Shown: piece by piece, positions 42,278 through 54,093 of the stretch
Numbering within the stretch: the stretch's first letter is position 1
Layout: every line of letters begins with the position of its first letter
Origin: Ornithinimicrobium murale
GTDB taxonomy: Bacteria > Actinomycetota > Actinomycetes > Actinomycetales > Dermatophilaceae
Reading direction: 5' to 3'
Assembly: GCF_003352835.1 (NCBI RefSeq)
Contig: NZ_QLVD01000026.1
Coordinates: 62,001 to 126,000 of the forward strand
DNA: 64,000 nt
The notes under the pieces: model-generated
What the model saw: the letters and a program-made list of their open reading frames with translations, nothing else
Databases searched by the model: none
What the model was told of the DNA's origin: nothing
Position numbers and translations under genes: made by a program

Positions 42278-42339
42278 TCCAGGTCCGGATCCTTGCGTCA
42301 GCGCCCGGCTCCAGGTCCGGATCCGGGCGTCAGCGCCCG
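42278..42339. repeat. two 30-bp direct repeats upstream of the molybdoenzyme gene
   Basis: The 30 bases at 42278-42307 recur at 42310-42339 with two mismatches (TT versus GG in the middle). Each begins TCCAGGTCCGGATCC and ends GCGTCAGCGCCCG. They lie in the 183-bp gap between the molybdoenzyme start and the M20 peptidase stop. The period of 32 bp equals that of the tandem repeats at 44.7 and 53.4 kb, but the sequence differs. Confidence 0.7.
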
Positions 42340-43681: not shown

Positions 43682-44674
43682 TCAGCCAATGGTGCCGCCC
43701 TCGTCCTCGTGCCGATCGTGCCGTATGTCCTCGGCGGGCACACCGCCACCCCCTGCCGCTCCGGCATCGGCCCGCGCACCCTCCTCGGCGAGAGCGGCCA
43801 CGTCGGCCTCATCCTGGGCGCCCGACCCGGCCAGCGCGGCCCGCGTGCGCGCCGCCAGCTGCGCTGCGGAGGCCCCGGCCAGCGCCTCGGACAGGCGCGG
43901 CACGGAGGCCAGGAGCTGCTGGGTGTAGGCGTGCTGCGGGTCCTCATAGAGCTGCTCGGTCGTGCCCACCTCGACGATCTCGCCGGCGCGCATCACCGCG
44001 ACCCGGTCACACACGTGCCGCACCACCGACAGGTCGTGCGAGACGAACACCAGGGTGAGGTCGAATCCGTCGACCACCTCATCGATCAGGTTGAGCACCT
44101 GCGCCCGCACCGAGACGTCCAGCGCGCTGACCGGCTCGTCCGCGACCAGGATGTGCGGGTCGGGAGCCAGGGCACGGGCCACCGAGATCCGTTGCCGCTG
44201 CCCGCCGCTGAACTGGTGGGGGAAGCGTCGCGCCGCGTCGGTGGACATCCCGACCCGCTCGAGCAGTTCGTTGATCTTGTCCCCGCGTGGGATGCCCTGC
44301 GCAGCAAGGGGTTCGGCGATGATCTCCCGGATCCTCATGCGGGGGTCCAGGGAGCCCATCGGGTCCTGGAAGACCAGCTGCAGCCGGCGCCGCAGCCACC
44401 GGAGCTTGCGCACCGAGCGGTCATGGATGGGTTGGCCCTCGATGTGAATCTCACCGGAGGTCGGACGGTCCAGCCCGCTGATCATCTTCAGCAGCGTGCT
44501 CTTGCCGGAGCCGGACTCCCCGACCAGCCCGAACCGCTCACCAGGCTGGATGTCGAGGCTCACGTCCCGCACCGCGTGCACCACCGCAGGGGTGCCGGTG
44601 AGGGAGGTGCGGGGCCGCCGGAACTCCCGGTTGACACCCCGCAGGCTGATCGCCGGGGTCTGCGTCTCACTCAT
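43682..44674 (-). CDS. peptide ABC transporter ATP-binding protein (OppF/DppF-like)
   Basis: A 330-residue ABC ATPase. Walker A is GESGSGKST, the Q-loop is in VFQDPMGSLDPR, the signature is FSGGQRQR, Walker B is HILVADEP, and the switch His is in FVSHDLSVVRH. It carries an Ala/Gly/Glu-rich C-terminal tail after about residue 270 that is not typical and may be disordered. The start at ATG 44674 follows the 32-bp repeat array, which separates it from the upstream oppD-like gene by about 180 bp; all other genes of the operon are close-packed. It powers uptake of peptides or similar solutes. Confidence 0.93.
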   Translation of the reverse strand: MSETQTPAISLRGVNREFRRPRTSLTGTPAVVHAVRDVSLDIQPGERFGLVGESGSGKSTLLKMISGLDRPTSGEIHIEGQPIHDRSVRKLRWLRRRLQLVFQDPMGSLDPRMRIREIIAEPLAAQGIPRGDKINELLERVGMSTDAARRFPHQFSGGQRQRISVARALAPDPHILVADEPVSALDVSVRAQVLNLIDEVVDGFDLTLVFVSHDLSVVRHVCDRVAVMRAGEIVEVGTTEQLYEDPQHAYTQQLLASVPRLSEALAGASAAQLAARTRAALAGSGAQDEADVAALAEEGARADAGAAGGGGVPAEDIRHDRHEDEGGTIG

Positions 44675-44699
44675 CCGCGCCACCACCCTTCCCCCCTCG

Positions 44700-44853
44700 A
44701 CCGAGCGCGTCGTGGCGCGACAATCCACCCGACCGAGCGCGTCGTGGCGCGACAATCCACCCGACCGAGCGCACCGTGAGGGCGACAATCCACCCCACCG
44801 AGCGCACCGTGAGGGCGACATTCCACCCCACCGAGCGCACCGGCCTGTGCCTG
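44700..44853. repeat. tandem 32/33-bp repeat array between oppD-like and oppF-like genes
   Basis: Five units begin ACCGAGCGC at 44700, 44732, 44765, 44797 and 44830, giving steps of 32, 33, 32 and 33 bp. Units 3 and 4 continue ACCGTGAGGGCGACA and units 1 and 2 GTCGTGGCGCGACA, all ending near CCACCC; the fifth is partial. The array has no unique spacers. The core ACCGAGCGCACCGTGA is shared with the array at 53432. Confidence 0.88.
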
Positions 44854-44857
44854 GATA

Positions 44858-45967
44858 TCACTCATCACGGTCACTTCCCACCGGGTGGAAGCAGGCGTAA
44901 CCCGAGGCATGCTCACCAGCCGGGTGCTCTCCGCGAGGCGTCCACGGCGGGAGCTGCTCGCAGGCCTTCGTCGCGAACGCGCAGCGGTTGCGGAACACGC
45001 ATCCATCGGGGAACTTCCCGGCCGGGGGCACGTTGCCCGGGATGGTGTCCAGGGGGCTGCGTCCCGGGTCGGTGCGCGAGCGCTCCAGGTCGGAGGCCGC
45101 GACCAACCCCTGGGTGTAGCGGTGCTGCGGGTTGCCCAGCACGTCAGCCACGGGGCCGGCCTCGACGATCCGGCCGCCATACATCACCAGCACCCGTTCG
45201 CACACGGTCGCCACCACGGCCAGGTCGTGGGTGATGAACAGCATGGCGGCGTCCCGTTCCTGGACGCCGCTCACGATCAGGTCGAGCACCAGCGCCTGCA
45301 CCGTGACGTCGAGGGCGGTTGTCGGCTCATCGCAGACGAGCAGCAGCGGGTCGTTGGCCAGCGCGATGGCGGCGACGACGCGCTGCCGCTGCCCACCGGA
45401 GAGTTGGTGCGGGTAGGACCGGGCGACGGCGGCCGGGTCGGGCAGCCCGACGCGGTCCAGCAGCTGGACGGCCTTGCGTTGCGCCGACCGCCGGTCGGCC
45501 TGACTGTGCTGGGTCATCACCTCGGCGACCTGGCGCCCGACCTTCATCGTCGGGTTCAGTGCCGTCATCGGCTCCTGGAAGATCATCGCCATATCGCGAC
45601 CGCGGATGCGGCTCATGCGGGACTCCGAGGCACCGAGGAGGCTGGCGTCCCGACCCGCCAGGCGCACCTCTCCGTGGGCGGCCAGACCTTCGGTCAACAG
45701 CCCCATGACCGCGAGGGCCGTCAACGACTTGCCTGAGCCGGACTCCCCGATCAGCCCGACCCGCTCGCCGCGCTGGATCGAGAAGGTCACGTCGTGCAGG
45801 AGCTGGGTGGTGCCCGCGCCGACATCGAGGCCCTCGACCGTCAGCACGGTCTCGGGGTCCTCGCCACGCGGCGCGTCCGGTGGGGCCGATTCTCGCGAGC
45901 CGGCGCGCTCCGTGGGGTTGTTTCCCGCCTGACCGCGCGCCCGGTCGGAGGGGGTGGTGGTGGTCAT
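44858..45967 (-). CDS. peptide ABC transporter ATP-binding protein (OppD/DppD-like) with repeat-derived N-terminus
   Basis: A 369-residue ABC ATPase: Walker A GESGSGKSL, Q-loop IFQEPMTALNP, signature LSGGQRQR, Walker B LLLVCDEP, His in FITHDLAVV. A C-terminal oligopeptide/HPY-type segment (CVFRNRCAFATKACEQ, four Cys) follows, as in OppD proteins that bind an Fe-S cluster or stabilise this loop. The ATG at 45967 overlaps the permease stop (ATGA). About 40 residues after the start (GNNPTERAGSRESAPPD region) precede the normal ABC fold and are encoded by degenerate 32-bp repeats, so this extension looks inserted. Confidence 0.93.
   Translation of the reverse strand: MTTTTPSDRARGQAGNNPTERAGSRESAPPDAPRGEDPETVLTVEGLDVGAGTTQLLHDVTFSIQRGERVGLIGESGSGKSLTALAVMGLLTEGLAAHGEVRLAGRDASLLGASESRMSRIRGRDMAMIFQEPMTALNPTMKVGRQVAEVMTQHSQADRRSAQRKAVQLLDRVGLPDPAAVARSYPHQLSGGQRQRVVAAIALANDPLLLVCDEPTTALDVTVQALVLDLIVSGVQERDAAMLFITHDLAVVATVCERVLVMYGGRIVEAGPVADVLGNPQHRYTQGLVAASDLERSRTDPGRSPLDTIPGNVPPAGKFPDGCVFRNRCAFATKACEQLPPWTPRGEHPAGEHASGYACFHPVGSDRDE
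45873..45955 (-). repeat. degenerate 32-bp repeats inside the oppD-like coding sequence
   Basis: On the plus strand, variants of the reverse-complemented core occur at 45873 (GCGTCCGGT), 45905 (GCGCTCCGT) and 45937 (GCGCCCGGT), exactly 32 bp apart. They follow the GCGCTCGGT pattern of the intergenic arrays. They code for the N-terminal extension of the OppD-like protein. The match is imperfect, so the call rests on the periodicity plus the core. Confidence 0.6.
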
Positions 45968-46782
45968 CGGCCCTCCAGTTTGGGGTCGAGGTAGTCGCGC
46001 AGCCCGTCGCCGAACAGGTTGAACCCGAGGACGGCCACGGCGATCGCAGCGCCGGGGATGATCGCCAGGTGCGGGGAGCGGTGCAGGACGTTCTGGCTCT
46101 CCAGCAGCATCCTGCCCCACGATGGCTCACCGGTGGGCGTGCCCAGGCCCAGGTAGGACAGCGCTGCCTCGGCGAGGATGGCGATCGCGAAGGAGACCGA
46201 GGCCTGCACGATCACCAGCCCGGTCACGTTGGGCAGCACGTGCTTCCAGGCGATCGCGAGCGGACCGTGGCCCGCGACGCGGGAGGCCGCGACATATTCG
46301 GTGTTGATCACCTGCAGGGCTCCCGATCGGGTGATTCGGGCGAACGCGGGGATGGTCGCGATCCCGATCGCGATCATCGCGATCGTCGTGCCGCCGCCAT
46401 AGAGCGTCGAGAACATGATCGCCAACAGCAGGGCGGGGAAGGCCAGCAGGATGTCGTTGCCGCGCATGATCAGCTGCCCGAACCGGCCCGGCGACATGGC
46501 GGCCAGGATGCCGACGGGCACGCCGATCAGCGCCGCGACCCCGACGGCGACGACGCCGACGAACAAGGTCGTGCGGGCACCGAGCAGGATCTGGGTGAGG
46601 ACGTCACGGGCAGACCGGTCGGTCCCCAGCCAGTGCTCGGCGTTGGGGGGCTGCTCCTTGGGGACAGGGAGGAACTTGAACTCATAGGGCGTCCAGACAT
46701 AGGAGACCAACGCCATGATCACCACGAGCAGCACCAGCAGCCCGCCGACGACGAGTGGCGCGTTGATCCGTCGACCGCTCAC
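45964..46782 (-). CDS. peptide ABC transporter permease (DppC/OppC-like)
   Basis: A 272-residue inner-membrane permease with the BPD-type signature EYVAASRVAGHGPLAIAWKHVLPN (EAA loop) and six hydrophobic segments. The EHWLGTDRSARDVLTQILLGART block before helix 2 is typical of DppC. I choose GTG 46782 because GAGGAGGGCGG lies just upstream. A GTG at 46824 would give 14 more residues and overlap the upstream gene. It forms the channel with the DppB-like protein and is coupled to the ATPase gene by a 4-bp overlap. Confidence 0.92.
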   Translation of the reverse strand: MSGRRINAPLVVGGLLVLLVVIMALVSYVWTPYEFKFLPVPKEQPPNAEHWLGTDRSARDVLTQILLGARTTLFVGVVAVGVAALIGVPVGILAAMSPGRFGQLIMRGNDILLAFPALLLAIMFSTLYGGGTTIAMIAIGIATIPAFARITRSGALQVINTEYVAASRVAGHGPLAIAWKHVLPNVTGLVIVQASVSFAIAILAEAALSYLGLGTPTGEPSWGRMLLESQNVLHRSPHLAIIPGAAIAVAVLGFNLFGDGLRDYLDPKLEGR

Positions 46783-46813
46783 CGATCCGCCCTCCTCACG
46801 GTGTGTGCCCTGC

Positions 46814-47764
46814 TCATCGGCCACCGGTCCGCAGTCGCGGGTCGATCGCCAGATACAGCGCGTCGACCAGGAAGTTGATGATCAGGACCGCCGCGACCAG
46901 CACCATCACGATGGTCTGCACAGTGATCAGCTCGCGGGAGGCCACCGAGTCGAGCAGGAAGCTGCCCAGGCCGGGGATCACGAAGACCCGCTCCACGACA
47001 ACGGCGCCGATGAGCAGGGTCGCCAACTGCAGCCCCAGGACCGTCACGATCGGGATGGCGGCGTTGCGCAGGCCGTGCCGGGTCAGGGCCTGCATCGGCC
47101 GCAGGCCCTTGGCGCGGGCGGTGCGCAGATAGTCCTCCCGGAGCACCTCGAGCACCGCGCTGCGCACGTAGCGCGCCAGGATCGAGGCCTGGACCAGGGC
47201 GAGCGCGACCGCCGGCAGCGCCAGCCGGCTCAGGAACCCCAGGGGGTCCTCGGCCGGTGGCACCCAGCCACCGGAGGGGAACCACTGCCAGCGCTTGGCG
47301 AAGTAGGTGATCAGGATGATGCCGGCCAGGAACGCCGGGACCGCGACACCGATCTGCGAGATCGCGGACAGCACCACCCCGTCGAGGTGGCGGTGCCGCA
47401 CCGCCATCCACGTGCCCACCGGCACTGCGACCACCAGGGCCAGCGCCATCGCGGTGATCACCAGCCATCCGGTCACCGCCAGCCGGTCGATGAGCTGCGG
47501 GGCGATCTCCGCCTTGCTCACCCACTCCACGCCCAGGTCGAGCGTGACCATCCCACGGAGCCAGTCCGCATACTGCACGATCAGGGACCGGTCCAGGCCG
47601 AACTGCTCCCGCAACTGGTCCACCGACTCCTCCGAGGAGTTCATGCCCAGCGCGACGCGCGCCGGGTCACCCGGCAGCACCTGCATGAACGCGAAGACCA
47701 GCGCCGAGGCCGCCAAGAGGCTGGCCAGCAGCACCAGGAAGCGTTGTGCCAGACGGAGCAGCAC
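46814..47764 (-). CDS. peptide ABC transporter permease (DppB/OppB-like)
   Basis: A 316-residue permease: N-terminal membrane anchor (FLVLLASLLAASALVFAFMQ), the long periplasmic segment GDPARVALGMNSSEESVDQLREQFG, and the EAA-type loop DYLRTARAKGLRPMQALTRHGLRNA. There are six predicted spans. The start is GTG at 47764. It follows the binding-protein gene by 16 bp and precedes the DppC-like gene. Together the five genes 43682-49340 encode a complete importer. Confidence 0.93.
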   Translation of the reverse strand: MLLRLAQRFLVLLASLLAASALVFAFMQVLPGDPARVALGMNSSEESVDQLREQFGLDRSLIVQYADWLRGMVTLDLGVEWVSKAEIAPQLIDRLAVTGWLVITAMALALVVAVPVGTWMAVRHRHLDGVVLSAISQIGVAVPAFLAGIILITYFAKRWQWFPSGGWVPPAEDPLGFLSRLALPAVALALVQASILARYVRSAVLEVLREDYLRTARAKGLRPMQALTRHGLRNAAIPIVTVLGLQLATLLIGAVVVERVFVIPGLGSFLLDSVASRELITVQTIVMVLVAAVLIINFLVDALYLAIDPRLRTGGR

Positions 47765-47780
47765 CGGGGTCAGGCTCGGA

Positions 47781-49340
47781 TCACTCGCCGGCGAGCTGGC
47801 TGAGGTCGAAGGACTCGGTAATCGCGTTCTCCGGCAGCCCGGTGATGCCCGGGTCTGCCACGATCAGGTTGGGCAGCAGGAAGAGGAAGTCGGACGCAGC
47901 GTCCTCGGAGACCAGCGTGGCGGCCTCCTTCATCTTCTCGATCTGCACCTCCTCGGTGCCGGCGTCGGCCTCGTCCAGCAGCGCGCGCAGCTCGGGGGTC
48001 CCGTAGCGCACGTAGTAGTCCGGGTTGCCGAAGACCGCGCCCAGGTCACGCGGCTCAACGTGCGAGACGATCGACATCTCATAGTCGGCATTGGTGAAGA
48101 CGTCCTCCAGCCAGGCGGCCGGGAACTCCAGGTCGTCGATGGTGACCTCGAAACCGACCTCCTCAAGCATGCTCTCCACGATCGGCGCGCAGGCGGTGGC
48201 GTAGGGCAGCGTCGGGATCCGCAGCCGGACCTCGGCACCCTCGGCTCCGGCCTCAGACAGCAGCGCCCGGGCGGCCTCGGTGTCGTAGGGGAAGTCACCG
48301 GTGCGGTCCTCATACCAGGGGTCGGTCGGGGGGACCATGCTGCCGATGAGGGTGCCGCGGCCGTCCCAGCAGGTGTCCAGCAGGGTCTGGTGATCGATCG
48401 CGTGGCGCACCGCCTGGCGGACCCGCGCGTCGTTGAACGGTGCGGTCTCGTTGTTGAGGCCGAGCACGACCTCGCCGTTGGTGGTGCCCTCGATGATCTG
48501 GTAGTCGCCGTCCTCGAACTCGCTCAGCGCCTCGGGTGCCTGGACGGTGCCGACCACGTCGATGCTGTCGGTCAGCATCGCGTTGTTCAGGGCGTTGGCG
48601 TCGTCGAAGTAGGACATCACCACCTGGTCGTAGTAGGGCTCCTCGCCCCAGTAGTCAGCGTTGCGCTGCAGCGTGATCGAGGTGCCGCGGTTCCACTCGC
48701 CGAAGGTGTAGGGGCCGGTCCCGATCGGGCGGGTGGCCAGCTCGTCGACACTGTTGGAGTCGAAGATCGCCCCGACGCGGGTGGTGAGGCTGTAGAGGAA
48801 GCTGTTGCTCGGGCTGCTCAGTGTGACGACGACCTCGCCGTCGGCGGTGGCCTCGACCGAGTCGATGATGTCGAACTGGCTCTTCAGGCTGACCGTCCAG
48901 TCGTTCTGCACGGCCTCGAACGAGCTGACCACGTCCTCGGCGGTGAACTCCTCGCCGTTGCTGAAGGTGACGCCGCTCTCGAGGGTGAAGGTGTAGGTCG
49001 TGCCGTCCTCGCTGACCTCCCACTCCGAGGCCAGAGCGGGCACGATCTCACCGCTCTGGTCGACCTTGACCAGGGACTCATAGACGTTGTAGAGCAGCAC
49101 CTGCGGGATCGCGGCACCGTCGGTCGTGGTGAAGTCCATGCTGGCGGGCTCGGCGACCAGGCCGATGCGGACCATGTCATCACCGGCCGGCGCGGCGGTG
49201 CCACCGCCGTTGTCACCGGTCTCGCCGCCGGTCTGCGTGTCGCCATCGGTGGGGTCGTCGCTGGTGGAGCCCGCGTTGCAGGCGGTCAGCAGGAAGGTGG
49301 CCGACAGGGCGGCGGCCAGCACCCGGGAGCGTGACGTCAT
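47781..49340 (-). CDS. peptide ABC transporter substrate-binding lipoprotein (family 5)
   Basis: A 519-residue solute-binding protein. The lipoprotein signal MTSRSRVLAAALSATF ends LLTAC at about residue 20. A Ser/Thr/Gly/Asp linker leads into the SBP_bac_5 fold with ALASEWEVSEDGTTYTFTL, FSNGEEFTAEDVVSSFE, and IGTGPYTFGEWNRGTSITLQRN. It captures oligopeptides or similar ligands outside the membrane. The ATG at 49340 follows AGGAAGG by 9 bases. As first gene of the importer operon it is normally the most highly expressed. Confidence 0.94.
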   Translation of the reverse strand: MTSRSRVLAAALSATFLLTACNAGSTSDDPTDGDTQTGGETGDNGGGTAAPAGDDMVRIGLVAEPASMDFTTTDGAAIPQVLLYNVYESLVKVDQSGEIVPALASEWEVSEDGTTYTFTLESGVTFSNGEEFTAEDVVSSFEAVQNDWTVSLKSQFDIIDSVEATADGEVVVTLSSPSNSFLYSLTTRVGAIFDSNSVDELATRPIGTGPYTFGEWNRGTSITLQRNADYWGEEPYYDQVVMSYFDDANALNNAMLTDSIDVVGTVQAPEALSEFEDGDYQIIEGTTNGEVVLGLNNETAPFNDARVRQAVRHAIDHQTLLDTCWDGRGTLIGSMVPPTDPWYEDRTGDFPYDTEAARALLSEAGAEGAEVRLRIPTLPYATACAPIVESMLEEVGFEVTIDDLEFPAAWLEDVFTNADYEMSIVSHVEPRDLGAVFGNPDYYVRYGTPELRALLDEADAGTEEVQIEKMKEAATLVSEDAASDFLFLLPNLIVADPGITGLPENAITESFDLSQLAGE

Positions 49341-49495
49341 CGTTGAATGCCTTCCTGGAGTGCCTGCGCCTCGGGGGTCGGACACAGGTCAAGCAGTGGT
49401 TCTCGCCAACTCTGCCGTATCCGCCCCGCGCGTGCCCACCCGGGGGGGGCAACCGATACGGAGTCGTTATCCTGCGCCCGCGTGCCGGACATGAC

Positions 49496-49539
49496 AGAGA
49501 CGCCGGTGGAACCTGCCCCCAGGTTCCACCGGCGTCTCT
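49496..49539 (-). terminator. strong hairpin terminator downstream of the ABC-2 exporter genes
   Basis: A perfect 20-bp stem (49496-49515 with 49520-49539) closes a CCCC loop. It lies 60 bases beyond the stop of the 49599-50432 permease gene and upstream of the peptide importer. A short CT-rich run follows on the plus strand. The perfect symmetry would allow termination in either direction. Confidence 0.85.
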
Positions 49540-49598
49540 TCCCCGGATGGGTGTGCCGGCCGTCGGGTCACCGTGACCCCTCGGCGGTTACGCGAAGG

Positions 49599-50432
49599 TC
49601 ACTTGACCTCGCGGCGCGTCACGCGCCACACCCCGATGGCCAGCGGGACTCCAACCCACAGCACCACCGATACGGCGAGCTGTGCCCACTGCTCGCCAGT
49701 CATTGCCGCCCCCATGGGAAGGGGCGAAGTCGTCATGGACAGGTCGATCCACTCGTAGGGAGTCTGCAGCCAGCTGACCAGCATCATCAGCGGCAGCAAG
49801 GTCGGCAGGGCGAAGTAGGCCACGATCGCTGCGGGCGTGTTCAGGAAGGCCAGTCCAAAGGCCAGACCGTTGAGCACGTACAGCACCATCATCAGCGTCA
49901 CGCCAGCGATGGCCCAGCCGTCGAAGGCCCACGCCGACTCGGCGCCACGCAGGTCGGCGACCAGCCGTCCGACCGCGCCGAGGGCGAGCGTCGTGACGAC
50001 CGCCCCCAGGCCGAGCAGCACCGTGCTGACGACCTTGGCCCAGACCACCCGGATGCGACGGGGCTCGAGGGTGAAGGTGGTCATCGCGGTGCGCTGGCTC
50101 CACTCCTGGGTGGCCGACATGATGCCCAGCACCGGCAGACCGATGCCGAGCGGCACCCCGGCGGCCGCCAGGTAGTTGCCGTAGCTGTGGTCGCCCCCGC
50201 TGAAGAACTGCATGATCACCATCGTCGCGACGATGATCAGGCCCAGGATGATCAGGAACCAGCGGCCGGCGAGGGTGTCGACCTGCTTGCGGGTCTCGAC
50301 CCGGACCAGCCGACCGAAGGAGACCGGCGCGATCGGGCTGTCAACGGTCGGCAGGCGGAAGCCGCCTCGGGGAGCGCCGTGGGGCGCGACGTGCGGCGTC
50401 CCGGACTCGGTGTTCACGGTCGTCGTGCTCAT
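49599..50432 (-). CDS. ABC-2 type transporter permease
   Basis: A 277-residue membrane protein with about six hydrophobic segments after a 50-residue cytoplasmic start (VSFGRLVRVETRKQVDTLAGRW, the usual opening before helix 1). ATQEWSQRTAMTTFTLEPRRIRVVWAK is the coupling region found in ABC-2 exporters. It pairs with the ATPase whose stop overlaps its start by 4 bp. Substrate unknown. The pair is divergent from a DesK/NarL-type two-component system, a layout seen for stress or antibiotic-responsive exporters. Confidence 0.9.
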   Translation of the reverse strand: MSTTTVNTESGTPHVAPHGAPRGGFRLPTVDSPIAPVSFGRLVRVETRKQVDTLAGRWFLIILGLIIVATMVIMQFFSGGDHSYGNYLAAAGVPLGIGLPVLGIMSATQEWSQRTAMTTFTLEPRRIRVVWAKVVSTVLLGLGAVVTTLALGAVGRLVADLRGAESAWAFDGWAIAGVTLMMVLYVLNGLAFGLAFLNTPAAIVAYFALPTLLPLMMLVSWLQTPYEWIDLSMTTSPLPMGAAMTGEQWAQLAVSVVLWVGVPLAIGVWRVTRREVK

Positions 50433-51328
50433 GCTGCCGTCTCCTGTCGTGCGTCGTCGGAGGTGAGGGTCAGGAACATCTCCTCCAGGCCCTGGCTGTC
50501 AGCGCCGCGGAGCTCCACCAGCGGGATGCCGGCGCCCGCAGCGACCTGCCCGACCACTGTCGTGTCGGCGTCGACCTGCAGACCGCCGTTGGGCAGGACG
50601 AGCACGTCCAGCCCCTTGCTCGCGAGCGCCCGGTGGAGTGCGGCATCGTCCGCGCTGCGCACCAGGCAGCCGGACGGCCGCAGCAGCTCCTCCTTGGTGC
50701 CGGAGGCCACGATGCGGCCACGCCCGATCACCACGATGTCGTCGGCGATCCGCTCGATCTCGTGCAGCAGGTGGGAGGAGAGCAGCACCGTGCCACCCTC
50801 GGAGGCGAAGGTGCCGAGCAGGTCACGCATCCAGCGGATGCCTGCGGGGTCGAGGCCGTTGGCCGGCTCGTCCAGGATCAGCACCTTCGGGTCGCCGAGC
50901 AGCGCGGCCGCCAGGCCGAGACGCTGCCGCATGCCCAGGGAGTAGTTGCGGATCCGCCGCTTGGCCTCCTTGGAGGTCAGGCCGACGACCTCCAGCATCT
51001 GGTCGACGCGCTTCTCGCCCACACCGAGCGTCAGTGCGCCCAGGCTCAGCACCTCCCGGCCGGTCCGGCCAGCATGCTGGGCGGAGGCGTCGAGCAGGAC
51101 GCCCACGTGCCGTCCGGGGTTCTGCAAGTGGTCAAAGGGTGTTCCGAGCACCGTCGCGGTGCCGCGGGTCGCCGGGGTCAACCCGGTCATCACACGCATG
51201 GTGGTGGACTTGCCCGCCCCGTTGGGACCGAGGAACCCGGTCACCCGTCCTGCCTCGGCAGTGAACGTCACATCGTCCACGGCGGTGAAGTCCCCGTATG
51301 TCTTCACGAGGTTCTCAACCTGAATCAT
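50429..51328 (-). CDS. ABC transporter ATP-binding protein (ABC-2 exporter)
   Basis: A 299-residue ATPase: VENLVKTYGDFTAVDDVTF, Walker A GPNGAGKST, signature variant YSLGMRQR, Walker B VLILDEPANGLDPAG and the H-loop LLSSHLLHE. A C-terminal segment (about residues 215-299) of the drug-exporter type follows. The ATG at 51328 is right for the family; the longer ORF upstream is not. It supplies energy to the permease encoded immediately downstream. The promoter region shared with the histidine kinase holds a palindrome at 51388-51401. Confidence 0.93.
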   Translation of the reverse strand: MIQVENLVKTYGDFTAVDDVTFTAEAGRVTGFLGPNGAGKSTTMRVMTGLTPATRGTATVLGTPFDHLQNPGRHVGVLLDASAQHAGRTGREVLSLGALTLGVGEKRVDQMLEVVGLTSKEAKRRIRNYSLGMRQRLGLAAALLGDPKVLILDEPANGLDPAGIRWMRDLLGTFASEGGTVLLSSHLLHEIERIADDIVVIGRGRIVASGTKEELLRPSGCLVRSADDAALHRALASKGLDVLVLPNGGLQVDADTTVVGQVAAGAGIPLVELRGADSQGLEEMFLTLTSDDARQETAA

Positions 51329-51387
51329 GTGTCCATCCTGCGGGACCACCCGCCCCCGGCACATCAGTCCACAGAATGGACCTTCGT

Positions 51388-51401
51388 CATACCTTGGTAT
51401 G
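51388..51401. promoter_or_regulatory. inverted repeat between ABC exporter and two-component genes
   Basis: CATACC (51388-51393) and GGTATG (51396-51401) are exact reverse complements around TT. The site lies between divergent start codons at 51328 and 51470. NarL/DesR-type response regulators bind such short palindromes, so the regulator at 52713 probably acts here (inference). Confidence 0.5.
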
Positions 51402-51469
51402 CCGCGTCTCACCCGGTCGCAGACCTTTGACTGCTCCGATGGTCCCCCTGCACGACCTATGGTCGGGGT

Positions 51470-52663
51470 GTGCGACCTGGCCAACCTCCGATGACCCGCT
51501 GGGGAGAGACCTGGCGCATTCTGGTGGCCGCGATAGCCGGGGTGCTGCTGTGGCTGTCCGCCTGGGCGGTCATTGACTTCGAGGGGCGCACCGGGCCCGA
51601 CTGGTGGCTGTTCGCCGTCGACCCGCTACTCGGCCTGATCTCGCTGGTGCTGCTGCACTATCGGCGGCGGTGGCCGCTCGCGGTGACCATCATCCTGATC
51701 GTGATCTCGACCGTGGCCACGACCGCCGGCGGCGCGGTCGTGATCGCCGTCATCTCCCTGGCCACCCGCCGGCACTGGCGGGAGCTCGCGGTGATCACCC
51801 CGCCCTACCTGGCCACCTCGTTCGTGTGGGACGCGCTGTTCACCGCACCCGGAGGGCAGTCGTGGGTCAACACTCTAACGAACGTCGTCATGCAGGTGCT
51901 GGTCATGGTGGCTGCGATCGCGATCGGCTACGGCATCGGCGTGCGCCGCGACAACATCGCCGCGCTGCGGGAGCGGGCCGAGGTCGCCGAGCGCGAGCAG
52001 GGCCGGAGGGTTGAGCAGGCGCGCGCGACCGAGCGCGCCCGCATCGCCCGCGAGATGCACGACGTGCTCGCCCACCGGATCAGCTTGATCGCGATGAACG
52101 CCGGCGTCCTGAGTTATCGCCAGGACCTGCCGCCGGAGCAGGTGCGGGAGATCGCCGGAACGGTCCGAGACAACGCGGACCAGGCGGTGCAGGAGTTGCG
52201 GGCCGTGCTCGGCGTGCTTCGCGGCAGTGACGAGCCGGACCAACCGCGCGGCCCACAGCCCGACCTGGCCCAGCTGACGACCCTCTTCGAGGAGGTCCGA
52301 GCCGGCGGCACACCGGTGGTCACGACCTTGCGGGTCGACCCGGCCGCGGTGCCCGAGGGCATCAGCCGGCATGCCTACCGGATCATCCAGGAGGGTCTGA
52401 CCAACGCGCGCAAGCACGCCAAGGGTCAGCCGGTCACCGTGTCCCTGTCGGGCGGGAACGGTATCGGCCTGGACCTCACCATCGTCAACCAACCCTCGGC
52501 CTACGGCGTGGAGCCGACGGATGACGGCGTCCGGGAGAGCGGCTCGGGCATGGGGCTGCTCGGGCTGGCCGAACGCGCCGTGCTCAGTGGCGGCCAGCTG
52601 AGCTATGGCACTGACCGGTCGGGCCGTTTCGTGGTGCGCGCGTGGTTGCCGTGGACCGTCTGA
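51470..52663 (+). CDS. sensor histidine kinase (HisKA_3, DesK/NarX type)
   Basis: A 397-residue kinase. About five or six membrane segments (residues about 15-155) without a large extracellular domain are followed by a coiled linker (ALRERAEVAEREQGRRVEQ). The dimerisation/phosphotransfer helix carries ERARIAREMHDVLAHRIS, where the His of MHDV is the phosphorylation site. The ATPase domain has QEGLTNARKHAKG and GSGMGLLGLAERA. The GTG at 51470 or an ATG at 51491 may be the start; neither has a clear ribosome site. It partners the response regulator 49 bp downstream. Confidence 0.92.
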   Translation: MRPGQPPMTRWGETWRILVAAIAGVLLWLSAWAVIDFEGRTGPDWWLFAVDPLLGLISLVLLHYRRRWPLAVTIILIVISTVATTAGGAVVIAVISLATRRHWRELAVITPPYLATSFVWDALFTAPGGQSWVNTLTNVVMQVLVMVAAIAIGYGIGVRRDNIAALRERAEVAEREQGRRVEQARATERARIAREMHDVLAHRISLIAMNAGVLSYRQDLPPEQVREIAGTVRDNADQAVQELRAVLGVLRGSDEPDQPRGPQPDLAQLTTLFEEVRAGGTPVVTTLRVDPAAVPEGISRHAYRIIQEGLTNARKHAKGQPVTVSLSGGNGIGLDLTIVNQPSAYGVEPTDDGVRESGSGMGLLGLAERAVLSGGQLSYGTDRSGRFVVRAWLPWTV

Positions 52664-52712
52664 GCCGCGAAACCGGGTGCCGGGCACCGCGCCGGCTGGA
52701 TACCGTGGGCCG

Positions 52713-53432
52713 GTGAGCACCGCATCCCCCAGCCCGGACCCGGCCGGCACCATCTCGGTCGTCCTGGTCGACGACGACGCCCTCGTCCGCACCGGCCTGG
52801 GTCTCATCCTGGGCGGCGCACCCGACCTCGAGGTGGTCGGGGAGGCCGACGACGGACGCGCCGGTGTTGACCTCGTCGCGCAGGCGCGGCCCGACGTCGT
52901 CCTGATGGACATCCGGATGCCGGTGCTGGACGGTCTCGCCGCAACGGCCGAGCTGCTGGCGCAGGAGGACCCGCCGAAGGTCATCGTGCTGACCACCTTC
53001 GACACCGACGACATGGTCCTGGAGGCGTTGCGCATCGGGGCTCACGGCTTCCTGCTGAAGACGACCCGCCCGGAACGCCTCGTCGAGGCGGTGCGCCGCG
53101 CCGTGCGTGACGGGGAGCCGAGCCTGTCGCCGTCGGTGACACAACAGCTGATCGCCCAGGTCGCCGGCGGGGTGCGCCAGGCGGCAGATGCCGCGGGTCA
53201 GGAGCGCCGCACCCGGGCCGAGCAGTTGCTCGAAGCGCTGACCGAGCGGGAGCGCGAGGTGGCCGTCGCGATCGGTCAGGGCTGGTCCAACGCCCAGATC
53301 GCCAACACCCTCTACATGGGGCTGCCGACCGTCAAGGCCCACGTCTCCCGGGTGCTCGTCAAGCTCGGTGCTGGCAACCGCACGCAGATCGCCCTGATCG
53401 TGCACGACGCCGGCCTCACCGAACCCACTTGA
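52713..53432 (+). CDS. LuxR/NarL family response regulator
   Basis: A 239-residue regulator starting at GTG 52713. The receiver domain (SVVLVDDDALVRTGL at the start, phospho-acceptor Asp in VVLMDIRMPVLDG, Thr/Lys switch in VLTTFD and LLKTTRP) spans about residues 12-130. A LuxR helix-turn-helix closes the protein (LTEREREVAVAIGQGWSNAQIA, GLPTVKAHVSRVLVKLG). It likely activates the divergent ABC exporter in response to the kinase. The 32-bp repeat array begins at its stop codon. Confidence 0.94.
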   Translation: MSTASPSPDPAGTISVVLVDDDALVRTGLGLILGGAPDLEVVGEADDGRAGVDLVAQARPDVVLMDIRMPVLDGLAATAELLAQEDPPKVIVLTTFDTDDMVLEALRIGAHGFLLKTTRPERLVEAVRRAVRDGEPSLSPSVTQQLIAQVAGGVRQAADAAGQERRTRAEQLLEALTEREREVAVAIGQGWSNAQIANTLYMGLPTVKAHVSRVLVKLGAGNRTQIALIVHDAGLTEPT

Positions 53433-53560
53433 CCGAGCGCACGGTGACCCGACTCCCAGCCCCACCGAGCGCACCGTGACCCGACTCCCAGCCCCACCGA
53501 GCGCACCGTGACCCGACTCCCAGCCCCACCGAGCGCACGGTGACATGCCCACCAGGCCCA
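53432..53560. repeat. tandem 32-bp repeat array between response regulator and marR genes
   Basis: Four units begin ACCGAGCGC at 53432, 53464, 53496 and 53528, exactly 32 bp apart. Units 2 and 3 continue ACCGTGACCCGACTCCCAGCC without a difference; the last is partial and followed by a degraded ATCCAGCGCGCGG. The array fills most of the 145-bp gap between two convergent genes. The core equals that of the array at 44700. Confidence 0.9.
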
Positions 53561-53577
53561 TCCAGCGCGCGGCCCCG

Positions 53578-54078
53578 TTACTGACGTGCGACGTCGCCCG
53601 AGCCCGCCAACAGCTTCTCCAGAAGCGCGGCCAGACGGTCTTGTTCGGCGCGGGTGAGGGGCGCCAACAGTCGCCGCTCGTTGTCCAGGTGCCCCTCAAC
53701 GATCCGGTCCACCAGGGCCAACCCCTCCTCGGTCAGCGACACCAGCACGCTGCGCCGGTTTGTCGGGTCGGTCCGGCGCTCTAGCAGCCCTTTGACCTCG
53801 AGCCCGGCGAGACGGTTGGTCATGGCGGCCTGGGACCGCATCGTGGAGTCGGCAAGCTGCCCGGGAGTCAGGGTGAACGGTGGGCCGGAGCGACGCAGGG
53901 TCGCCAGGACGTCGAACTGGCCGTGCAGGAGATCCTGCTCGTCGAAGTAGTCCTGCAGGCCTCGTGACATCAGCTCCGAGGCACGGCCGAGCCGCCCGAT
54001 GACCGCCATGGGCGCGACATCGAGGTCCGGTCGTTCGCGCGCCCACTGCGCCAGGAAGTCACTCACTCGATCAGCCAT
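53578..54078 (-). CDS. MarR family transcriptional regulator
   Basis: A 166-residue MarR protein: LTPGQLADSTMRSQAAMTNRLAGLEVKGLLERRTDP is the helix-turn-helix and wing (DPTNRRSVLVSLTEEG). The ATG at 54078 has GAAGGG six bases upstream; an ATG at 54084 is in frame but would touch that site. It is divergent from the EamA exporter, and a perfect palindrome overlaps the exporter's -35 box, so simple repression of the exporter and of itself is likely. Confidence 0.9.
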   Translation of the reverse strand: MADRVSDFLAQWARERPDLDVAPMAVIGRLGRASELMSRGLQDYFDEQDLLHGQFDVLATLRRSGPPFTLTPGQLADSTMRSQAAMTNRLAGLEVKGLLERRTDPTNRRSVLVSLTEEGLALVDRIVEGHLDNERRLLAPLTRAEQDRLAALLEKLLAGSGDVARQ

Positions 54079-54093
54079 CGCCATCCCTTCTAC

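Follow-up and report, generated by a model that had tools for sequence, protein, structure and literature searches.

Introduction

Dispersed repeats at gene ends are an old puzzle: they may be selfish, or they may act on transcription, supercoiling or DNA exchange. MIRUs are arranged in tandem and are longer than 32 bp, REP/REPIN elements and BIMEs favour the 3' ends of genes, and the LTRR unit measures 37 bp; we know of no stop-codon anchoring or dialects in LTRR. In published accounts, MIRUs are short dispersed actinobacterial repeats at gene boundaries, apparently mobile, that insert at start codons and carry an open reading frame coupled to the neighbouring gene (PMC12548453). REP/REPIN elements with RAYT, and BIMEs, are presented there as many short extragenic repeats per genome, REPINs being inverted pairs capable of forming hairpins (PMC8049555). 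The DNA uptake sequences (DUS) of Neisseriaceae are described as short words, thousands per genome and often in inverted pairs, that occupy permissive sites and whose dialects have a conserved core in common (PMC3630211), and the LTRR of Nostoc (Anabaena) PCC 7120 as long tandemly repeated sequences in intergenic regions (PMC2408588). Here, we describe tandem arrays of a 32-bp direct repeat, family A, found in a 64,000-nt stretch of the Ornithinimicrobium murale genome (the window, G000:C3:62001-126000; G000 is a 3.29 Mb draft genome, 75% complete). We interpret the arrays, with confidence that is evenly balanced, as clade-specific dispersed direct DNA repeats with a 32-bp pitch and a gene-3'-end preference that serve as sites for a putative DNA-binding factor. 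No title describing these repeats turned up in searches of an open-access library, which is not proof that there is none.

A repeat family with a fixed core and a 32-bp pitch

The initial annotation of the window had described five units in 32/33-bp steps at 44700, four units in exact 32-bp steps at 53432, and a degenerate third array with 32-bp spacing on the opposite strand. We recovered all three: five plus-strand cores were located in the first, the second carries in addition a decayed core near 53560, and the third is real, with its cores on the minus strand (Table 1). Within the window, ACCGAGCGCACCGTGA with at most 3 mismatches matched 17 times, against 2.25 expected (100 shuffles, largest 5). 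A genome-wide repeat search, which the annotation had recommended, returned 86 tandem-pair matches in the same genome and 0 with the reversed pattern, so the consensus is not confined to these loci. The three window arrays are members of a genome-wide family: a position-weight scan of 430 kb, comprising the window and stretches around matches, identified 46 arrays with 191 units in G000 and 0 in the reversed control. Not counted in the 46 is a degenerate array of two units that follows an ABC-2 gene (L089).

Each family A unit consists of a 12-nt C-rich linker and a 20-nt core, ACCGRGCGCRYSGnSnnSYG, in which positions 1-9 are nearly invariant and the degenerate positions fall into R, Y and S classes. 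The consensus from 111 units is ACCGRGCGCRYSGNSRCSYGA, followed by a loose linker with a CCCC end. Units had been described as contiguous and without spacers; the contiguity holds, with the refinement that each unit comprises linker plus core and that the last element of an array is a core. A leader rich in C and poor in G precedes the first core irrespective of gene orientation: over positions -12 to -5, C is 0.55 in 68 arrays beside a sense stop, 0.57 in a further 60 arrays, and G is 0.10-0.11, compared with an intergenic C background of 0.34, to near which the sequence returns after the last core. The unit overall has C 0.38 and G 0.33.

Both pitch and core are strongly constrained. Neighbouring strong cores 18-70 bp apart gave 533 gaps, of which 470 equal 32 and 40 equal 33, and the 32-bp step is kept by 73/83 neighbouring unit pairs that lie outside genes and are <50% identical at positions 10-20. 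In a blind test of middle units lying between two good ones, 274/292 carried the full ACCGRGCGC and 18 matched at 8/9. Compared with the unit before, mismatch is 0.027 over positions 1-9, 0.142 over positions 10-20 and 0.209 over positions 21-32. Within arrays, positions 21-32 are 75-85% identical, and we rejected a CRISPR array, in which unrelated spacers would be expected. Single cores outside arrays are few (at a score of >=17, 5 and 6, versus 1 and 1 in reversed controls).

One G000 contig (L092 6077-6210) and at least four contigs (L103, L117, L133, L177) of G023, the metagenome-assembled genome (MAG) AS06rmzACSIP_198, end within ~31 bases of an array. With contig breaks this close to arrays, short-read assemblies probably underestimate their number.

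Some other repeats resemble family A superficially. Tandem 16-bp repeats whose start resembles the A core occur in AS06rmzACSIP_319 and in a Ktedonobacterales MAG (L144 3027-3110, L171 7631-7714); both records were rejected as members on account of the 16-bp unit. G007 (L277 4535-4673) has a 33-bp and G000 (L089 6699-6775) a 31-bp tandem repeat; both lack the A core and the core of family B (see below).

Arrays at gene ends and within genes

Genes were called with a home-made codon-usage script, for which starts are approximate and stops firmer. A check for a conserved position at gene 3' ends, also recommended in the annotation, revealed a preference: 27/46 arrays in G000 and 27/60 in its relative G007 start <=30 nt from a stop on the same strand, compared with 8.4% and 7.4%, respectively, for random intergenic points. 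Sixty of the 95 non-coding arrays in these two genomes have an edge <=30 nt from a stop, the nearest edge being the 5' one in 46 and the 3' one in 14. The G007 arrays are scattered across the whole chromosome on both strands.

Arrays also occur inside coding sequence, where 33-bp steps are in excess: they make up 24/39 steps within called genes versus 21/286 outside (Fisher on 32/33 steps, p 3e-14), the steps not being independent because 12/24 of the coding 33-bp steps come from one G007 nuoB-like gene. A 33-bp step preserves the reading frame, whereas a 32-bp unit shifts it each time. Consistent with this, arrays that are coding or able to extend an N-terminus account for 7/8 of those with 33-bp steps only, 5/15 of the mixed ones and 10/83 of those with 32-bp steps only. 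Translation of coding family A copies uses several frames and either strand. At oppF, G007, G002 (O. cavernae KCTC 49018), G005 and G025 have a start upstream and an open frame running through the array region into the gene; in G000, where two steps are 32 bp, the frame from upstream closes after 64 codons, and the gene is called from 44674, past the array.

Individual coding arrays can be long. The nuoB-like gene of G007 (L261 3201-4223) has a C-terminal tail derived from 13 units as an 11-residue repeat, and its G000 orthologue (L082 3414-4145) contains 4 array units. Arrays in maltokinase-GlgB-type and double ABC ATPase genes (L286 2553-6530, L306 3095-4858) lie apparently between domains.

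Distribution and turnover

Family A is limited to one clade. At E 1e-5 the family A model R1, built like the family B model R2 from these genomes' sequences so that matches there are partly by construction, hit 7/186 genomes of the taxonomic family, all in one genus of 53. At E 0.01 across 31 genomes of the O. cavernae genus, R1 gave 25-164 matches in G000, G002, G005, G007, G023 and G025 and 11 in G008; a further 16 genomes had 1-4 weak matches and the remaining 8 had none. In an OppF tree of 29 genomes (G023 and G008 absent), the five array-rich rows do not form one clade, because G006, which has family B and hardly any A, falls among them.

We compared array sites between G000 and G007. From G000, 21/46 arrays could be placed in fetched G007 loci: 18 of these have a counterpart array with matching orientation, and at 3 the site is empty; in the other direction 19 share an array, 3 are empty and 38/60 are unplaced. 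At the 25 unplaced G000 arrays, G007 probably has no array; alternatively, the regions are missing or the arrays fall below threshold. Identity over positions 21-32 is 0.505 across the 18 shared sites versus 0.429 in random pairs (permutation p 0.013), and the flanks are 73-90% identical. These identities indicate that the position and orientation of an array are old and that most of the unit has been replaced.

After the stop of the ABC-2 gene, G000 has one good core followed by a degenerate one, and the more distant G008 a five-unit array in a facing pair; seven nearer relatives have no array there. Arrays of either orientation follow the same LuxR-type gene.

A second family with the same pitch

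A core-free search at period 31-33 yielded 219 rows, 26 of them away from family A arrays, and among these was a second family, B. Its core, AGnGGTTTYG, and its leader, like CCCnCAAWWWT, are unrelated to those of A; the 32-bp unit and a similar layout are common to both. A loose B finder gave 39 arrays, A arrays among them, versus 9 with the reversed pattern, and a strict one gave 50 versus 0. In the 50 B arrays, from G006, G005 and G007, 71/71 steps equal 32. Those starting <=35 nt from a sense stop number 12/17 in G006, 3/7 in G005 and 10/26 in G007 (no null was computed for B); 7 of these 25 start at exactly 11 nt, with the element abutting the stop, and in some others the stop lies within the element. 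Among the 31 genomes, R2 found 30-127 matches in G000, G002, G005, G006, G007, G023 and G025 and at most 1 in each of the remaining 24.

Family B cores form dialects, a few groups rather than one per species: GGAGGTTYGGACCG in G000, RRAGGTYTCGYACG types in G007, and AGRGGTTTCGTMGG in G005 and G006. Within species, identity over the 14-nt B core is 0.88 in G000, 0.83 in G005, 0.85 in G006 and 0.83 in G007, and lower in G025 (0.77), G023 (0.73) and G002 (0.61, 4 arrays). Between species it ranges from 0.55 to 0.84, the top value being that for G005 and G006; the mean over 19 orthologous pairs is 0.66. In B leaders, A-runs and T-rich runs take each other's place, with 20 of the former, 60 of the latter and 8 mixed in counts that are not de-duplicated.

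In three cases, A and B replace each other at one slot between species, an observation that is only suggestive because many loci were fetched for holding A arrays and ~1 case would be expected on a rough, uncomputed estimate. Thirteen rows were called empty. A local B dialect overlooked by the finder accounts for five of them (G000 L066, G002 L330) and A arrays for another three; five stay empty, one of them with a relic.

Proposed DNA-binding sites or a selfish repeat

How might such arrays arise and persist? We propose that a putative sequence-specific DNA-binding factor recognises the core, and that the 32-bp pitch, ~three helical turns, would place the units on one face of the helix. Arrays would grow and shrink through slippage or recombination, new ones would be seeded at permissive post-stop slots, and family B would present another core at the same pitch in the same kind of slot. 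The R/Y/S degeneracy in A, together with the exchange of A-runs and T-rich runs in B, would fit recognition as DNA. Helical phasing may be the reason for 32, the ligand is likely to be a protein, and its effect could lie at transcript ends or in local supercoiling. That the arrays are helically phased sites for a putative factor, spreading like a mobile repeat, is a proposition to which we give about an even chance.

A number of observations weigh against this interpretation. The stop preference is weaker in other genomes (9/24 in G002, 2/6 in G005, 4/11 in G025, 1/2 in G008), and between co-directional genes in G000 and G007 the excess of sense over antisense arrays is modest (35 versus 23). 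The arrays appear dispensable at the scale of the genus, because A is represented in G006 by a single weak match and neither family occurs in most of the genus, and turnover looks high, because 25/46 G000 and 38/60 G007 arrays are unplaced. Positions 1-20 at the 18 shared sites are 0.736 identical versus 0.692 in random pairs (p 0.011), an identity that at positions 1-9 is partly by construction because these were used for finding arrays; only the blind middle-unit test is independent of that search criterion. Tandem duplication alone yields equal spacing, though not between diverged neighbours.

The main rival is a purely selfish mobile minisatellite, in which a transposase or recombination would copy arrays into post-stop slots, the core would be the enzyme's own site and the host would gain nothing. 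This is a serious possibility, though one we consider rather unlikely. The restriction of family A to one genus and its high turnover are as expected of such an element, as are the ABC-2 stop that is occupied in G000 and distant G008 and vacant in nearer relatives, the arrays of either orientation after the LuxR-type gene, and the copies tolerated inside nuoB-like, double ABC ATPase and maltokinase-GlgB-type genes. It accounts less readily for the scarcity of single cores and for a core that is maintained while linkers turn over, and no target duplication was seen by eye in six empty G000/G007 comparison rows. DNA-binding sites and a mobile repeat, both among the functions suggested initially, may each be correct, and perhaps both are. 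A phage origin was considered and rejected: four exact pattern matches lie in viral contigs, in which the array caller found no array, and the B pattern gave 0 matches.

A more far-reaching form of the DNA-binding interpretation would unite the two families. Here A and B would constitute a 32-bp-pitch DNA code at gene ends of the Ornithinimicrobium-type clade, mutually replaceable between species, and the dispersed sites in a genome would be converted jointly into dialects as they co-evolve with at least one trans-acting DNA-binding factor: a chromosome-wide gene-end marking system of a new kind. We offer this as speculation and regard it as unlikely.

Transcript-level and other explanations

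An RNA element and Rho-factor binding had also been suggested for these repeats. Arrays often begin right after stop codons, as a 3' untranslated region (UTR) element or Rho loading site acting past the stop codon would, and some probably lie in transcribed 3' ends, because the hairpins that follow them are slightly stronger: the strongest has a median of -22.1 kcal/mol after 28 post-stop arrays versus -19.3 after 159 control stops (p 0.04). We nevertheless judge this explanation improbable. Folding of family A arrays gave mean dinucleotide-shuffle z scores of -1.47 sense and -0.95 antisense, and the signal disappeared once the control kept the tandem structure (z 0.18 sense, 0.22 antisense in the 80 of 106 arrays with >=2 32-bp units); with the same kind of control, the 50 family B arrays likewise gave no signal (antisense z -0.61). 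Compensatory change was absent, 0/4 predicted pairs being altered on both sides, the 18 strongest covarying pairs were all <=4 positions apart, and Rfam 15 at the gathering score gave 0 matches in the six array loci scanned, a set outside which the window lies. These results disfavour an RNA element. The C-rich, G-poor leader would suit a Rho site; however, it is equally C-rich away from sense stops and in every orientation, the family A unit as a whole is hardly C-rich, and composition is therefore insufficient. Rho binding alone would also leave the invariant 9-bp core unexplained, and A-runs and T-rich runs interchange in family B.

The dialects raise the further idea of DNA uptake or identity sequences, in which biased uptake would spread arrays and a changing receptor would drive dialects. 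B cores are more alike within G000, G005, G006 and G007 (0.83-0.88) than across orthologous pairs, and DUS dialects likewise share a conserved core in permissive sites (PMC3630211). Yet the copies are tandem and seldom single, family A amounts to hundreds of units rather than thousands, G005 and G006 share one dialect, and G025, G023 and G002 are less uniform, leaving this explanation very improbable. Neutral tandem duplication or an assembly artefact is barely credible: slippage can create tandem repeats and some contigs do end near arrays, but the core constraint and pitch retention speak against it, and arrays are also present in the single-contig genomes G007, G005 and G006.

Arrays of the window and neighbouring genes

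Array 1 separates the oppD-like gene from the oppF-like gene as called here, in agreement with the initial annotation, and is antisense to them, making it one of the antisense cases (Table 1). Its steps are 32, 32, 33 and 33, and its fifth copy is terminal, with a core only. At the orthologous oppF start, G007, G002 and G005 have arrays and G025 a single weak core. Array 3 lies 18 nt beyond the oppC-like stop, in the part of the oppD-like gene that encodes the N-terminus; the orthologous site in G007 holds five units with 33-bp steps. At array 2, which is also present in G007, the last base of the upstream TGA stop is the A of the first core. Elsewhere in the window, a 32-bp repeat, TCCAGGTCCGGATCCGGGCGTCAGCGCCCGGC, with 1.9 copies and neither the A nor the B core, occupies 42278-42339 between two minus-strand genes.

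Table 1. Family A arrays of the window and the genes beside them (positions in the window).
Feature	Position	Strand	Remarks
Family A array 1	44700..44849	+	five cores: 44700, 44732, 44764, 44797, 44830
Array 1 leader, C-rich	44684..44699	+	
Family A array 2	53432..53547	+	four cores, all steps exactly 32
Array 2 fifth core, decayed	53560..53579	+	
Family A array 3, degenerate	45862..45945	-	three cores: 45945, 45913, 45881; steps 32, 32
oppF-like ABC ATPase (ABC_tran, oligo_HPY)	43682..44674	-	
oppD-like ABC ATPase	44858..45967	-	N-terminus partly encoded by array 3
LuxR-type response regulator	52605..53432	+	ends at array 2
MarR-type regulator	53578..54084	-	convergent with LuxR-type gene across array 2

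Comparison with known systems

Two unrelated families with a common pitch and a common kind of slot, rewritten quickly around a fixed core, amount to a natural experiment on gene-end repeats. One genus contains genomes with and without each family, O. cavernae included, so that gene-content comparison and pull-down offer routes to a putative trans-acting factor. Like MIRUs, the 32-bp arrays adjoin gene starts or stops (60/95 non-coding arrays have an edge <=30 nt from a stop); unlike MIRUs, they have a 32-bp unit that is not divisible by three and a core that occurs in several reading frames. They differ from REPINs in being direct repeats without a folding signal. Family B resembles DUS in showing dialects with a conserved core, whereas the arrays depart from DUS in their tandem 32-bp pitch and in the small number of single family A cores. 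LTRR, likened here by description rather than by sequence, shares with the present families the tandem repetition in intergenic regions and is distinguished from them by its unit, 37 bp against 32 bp.

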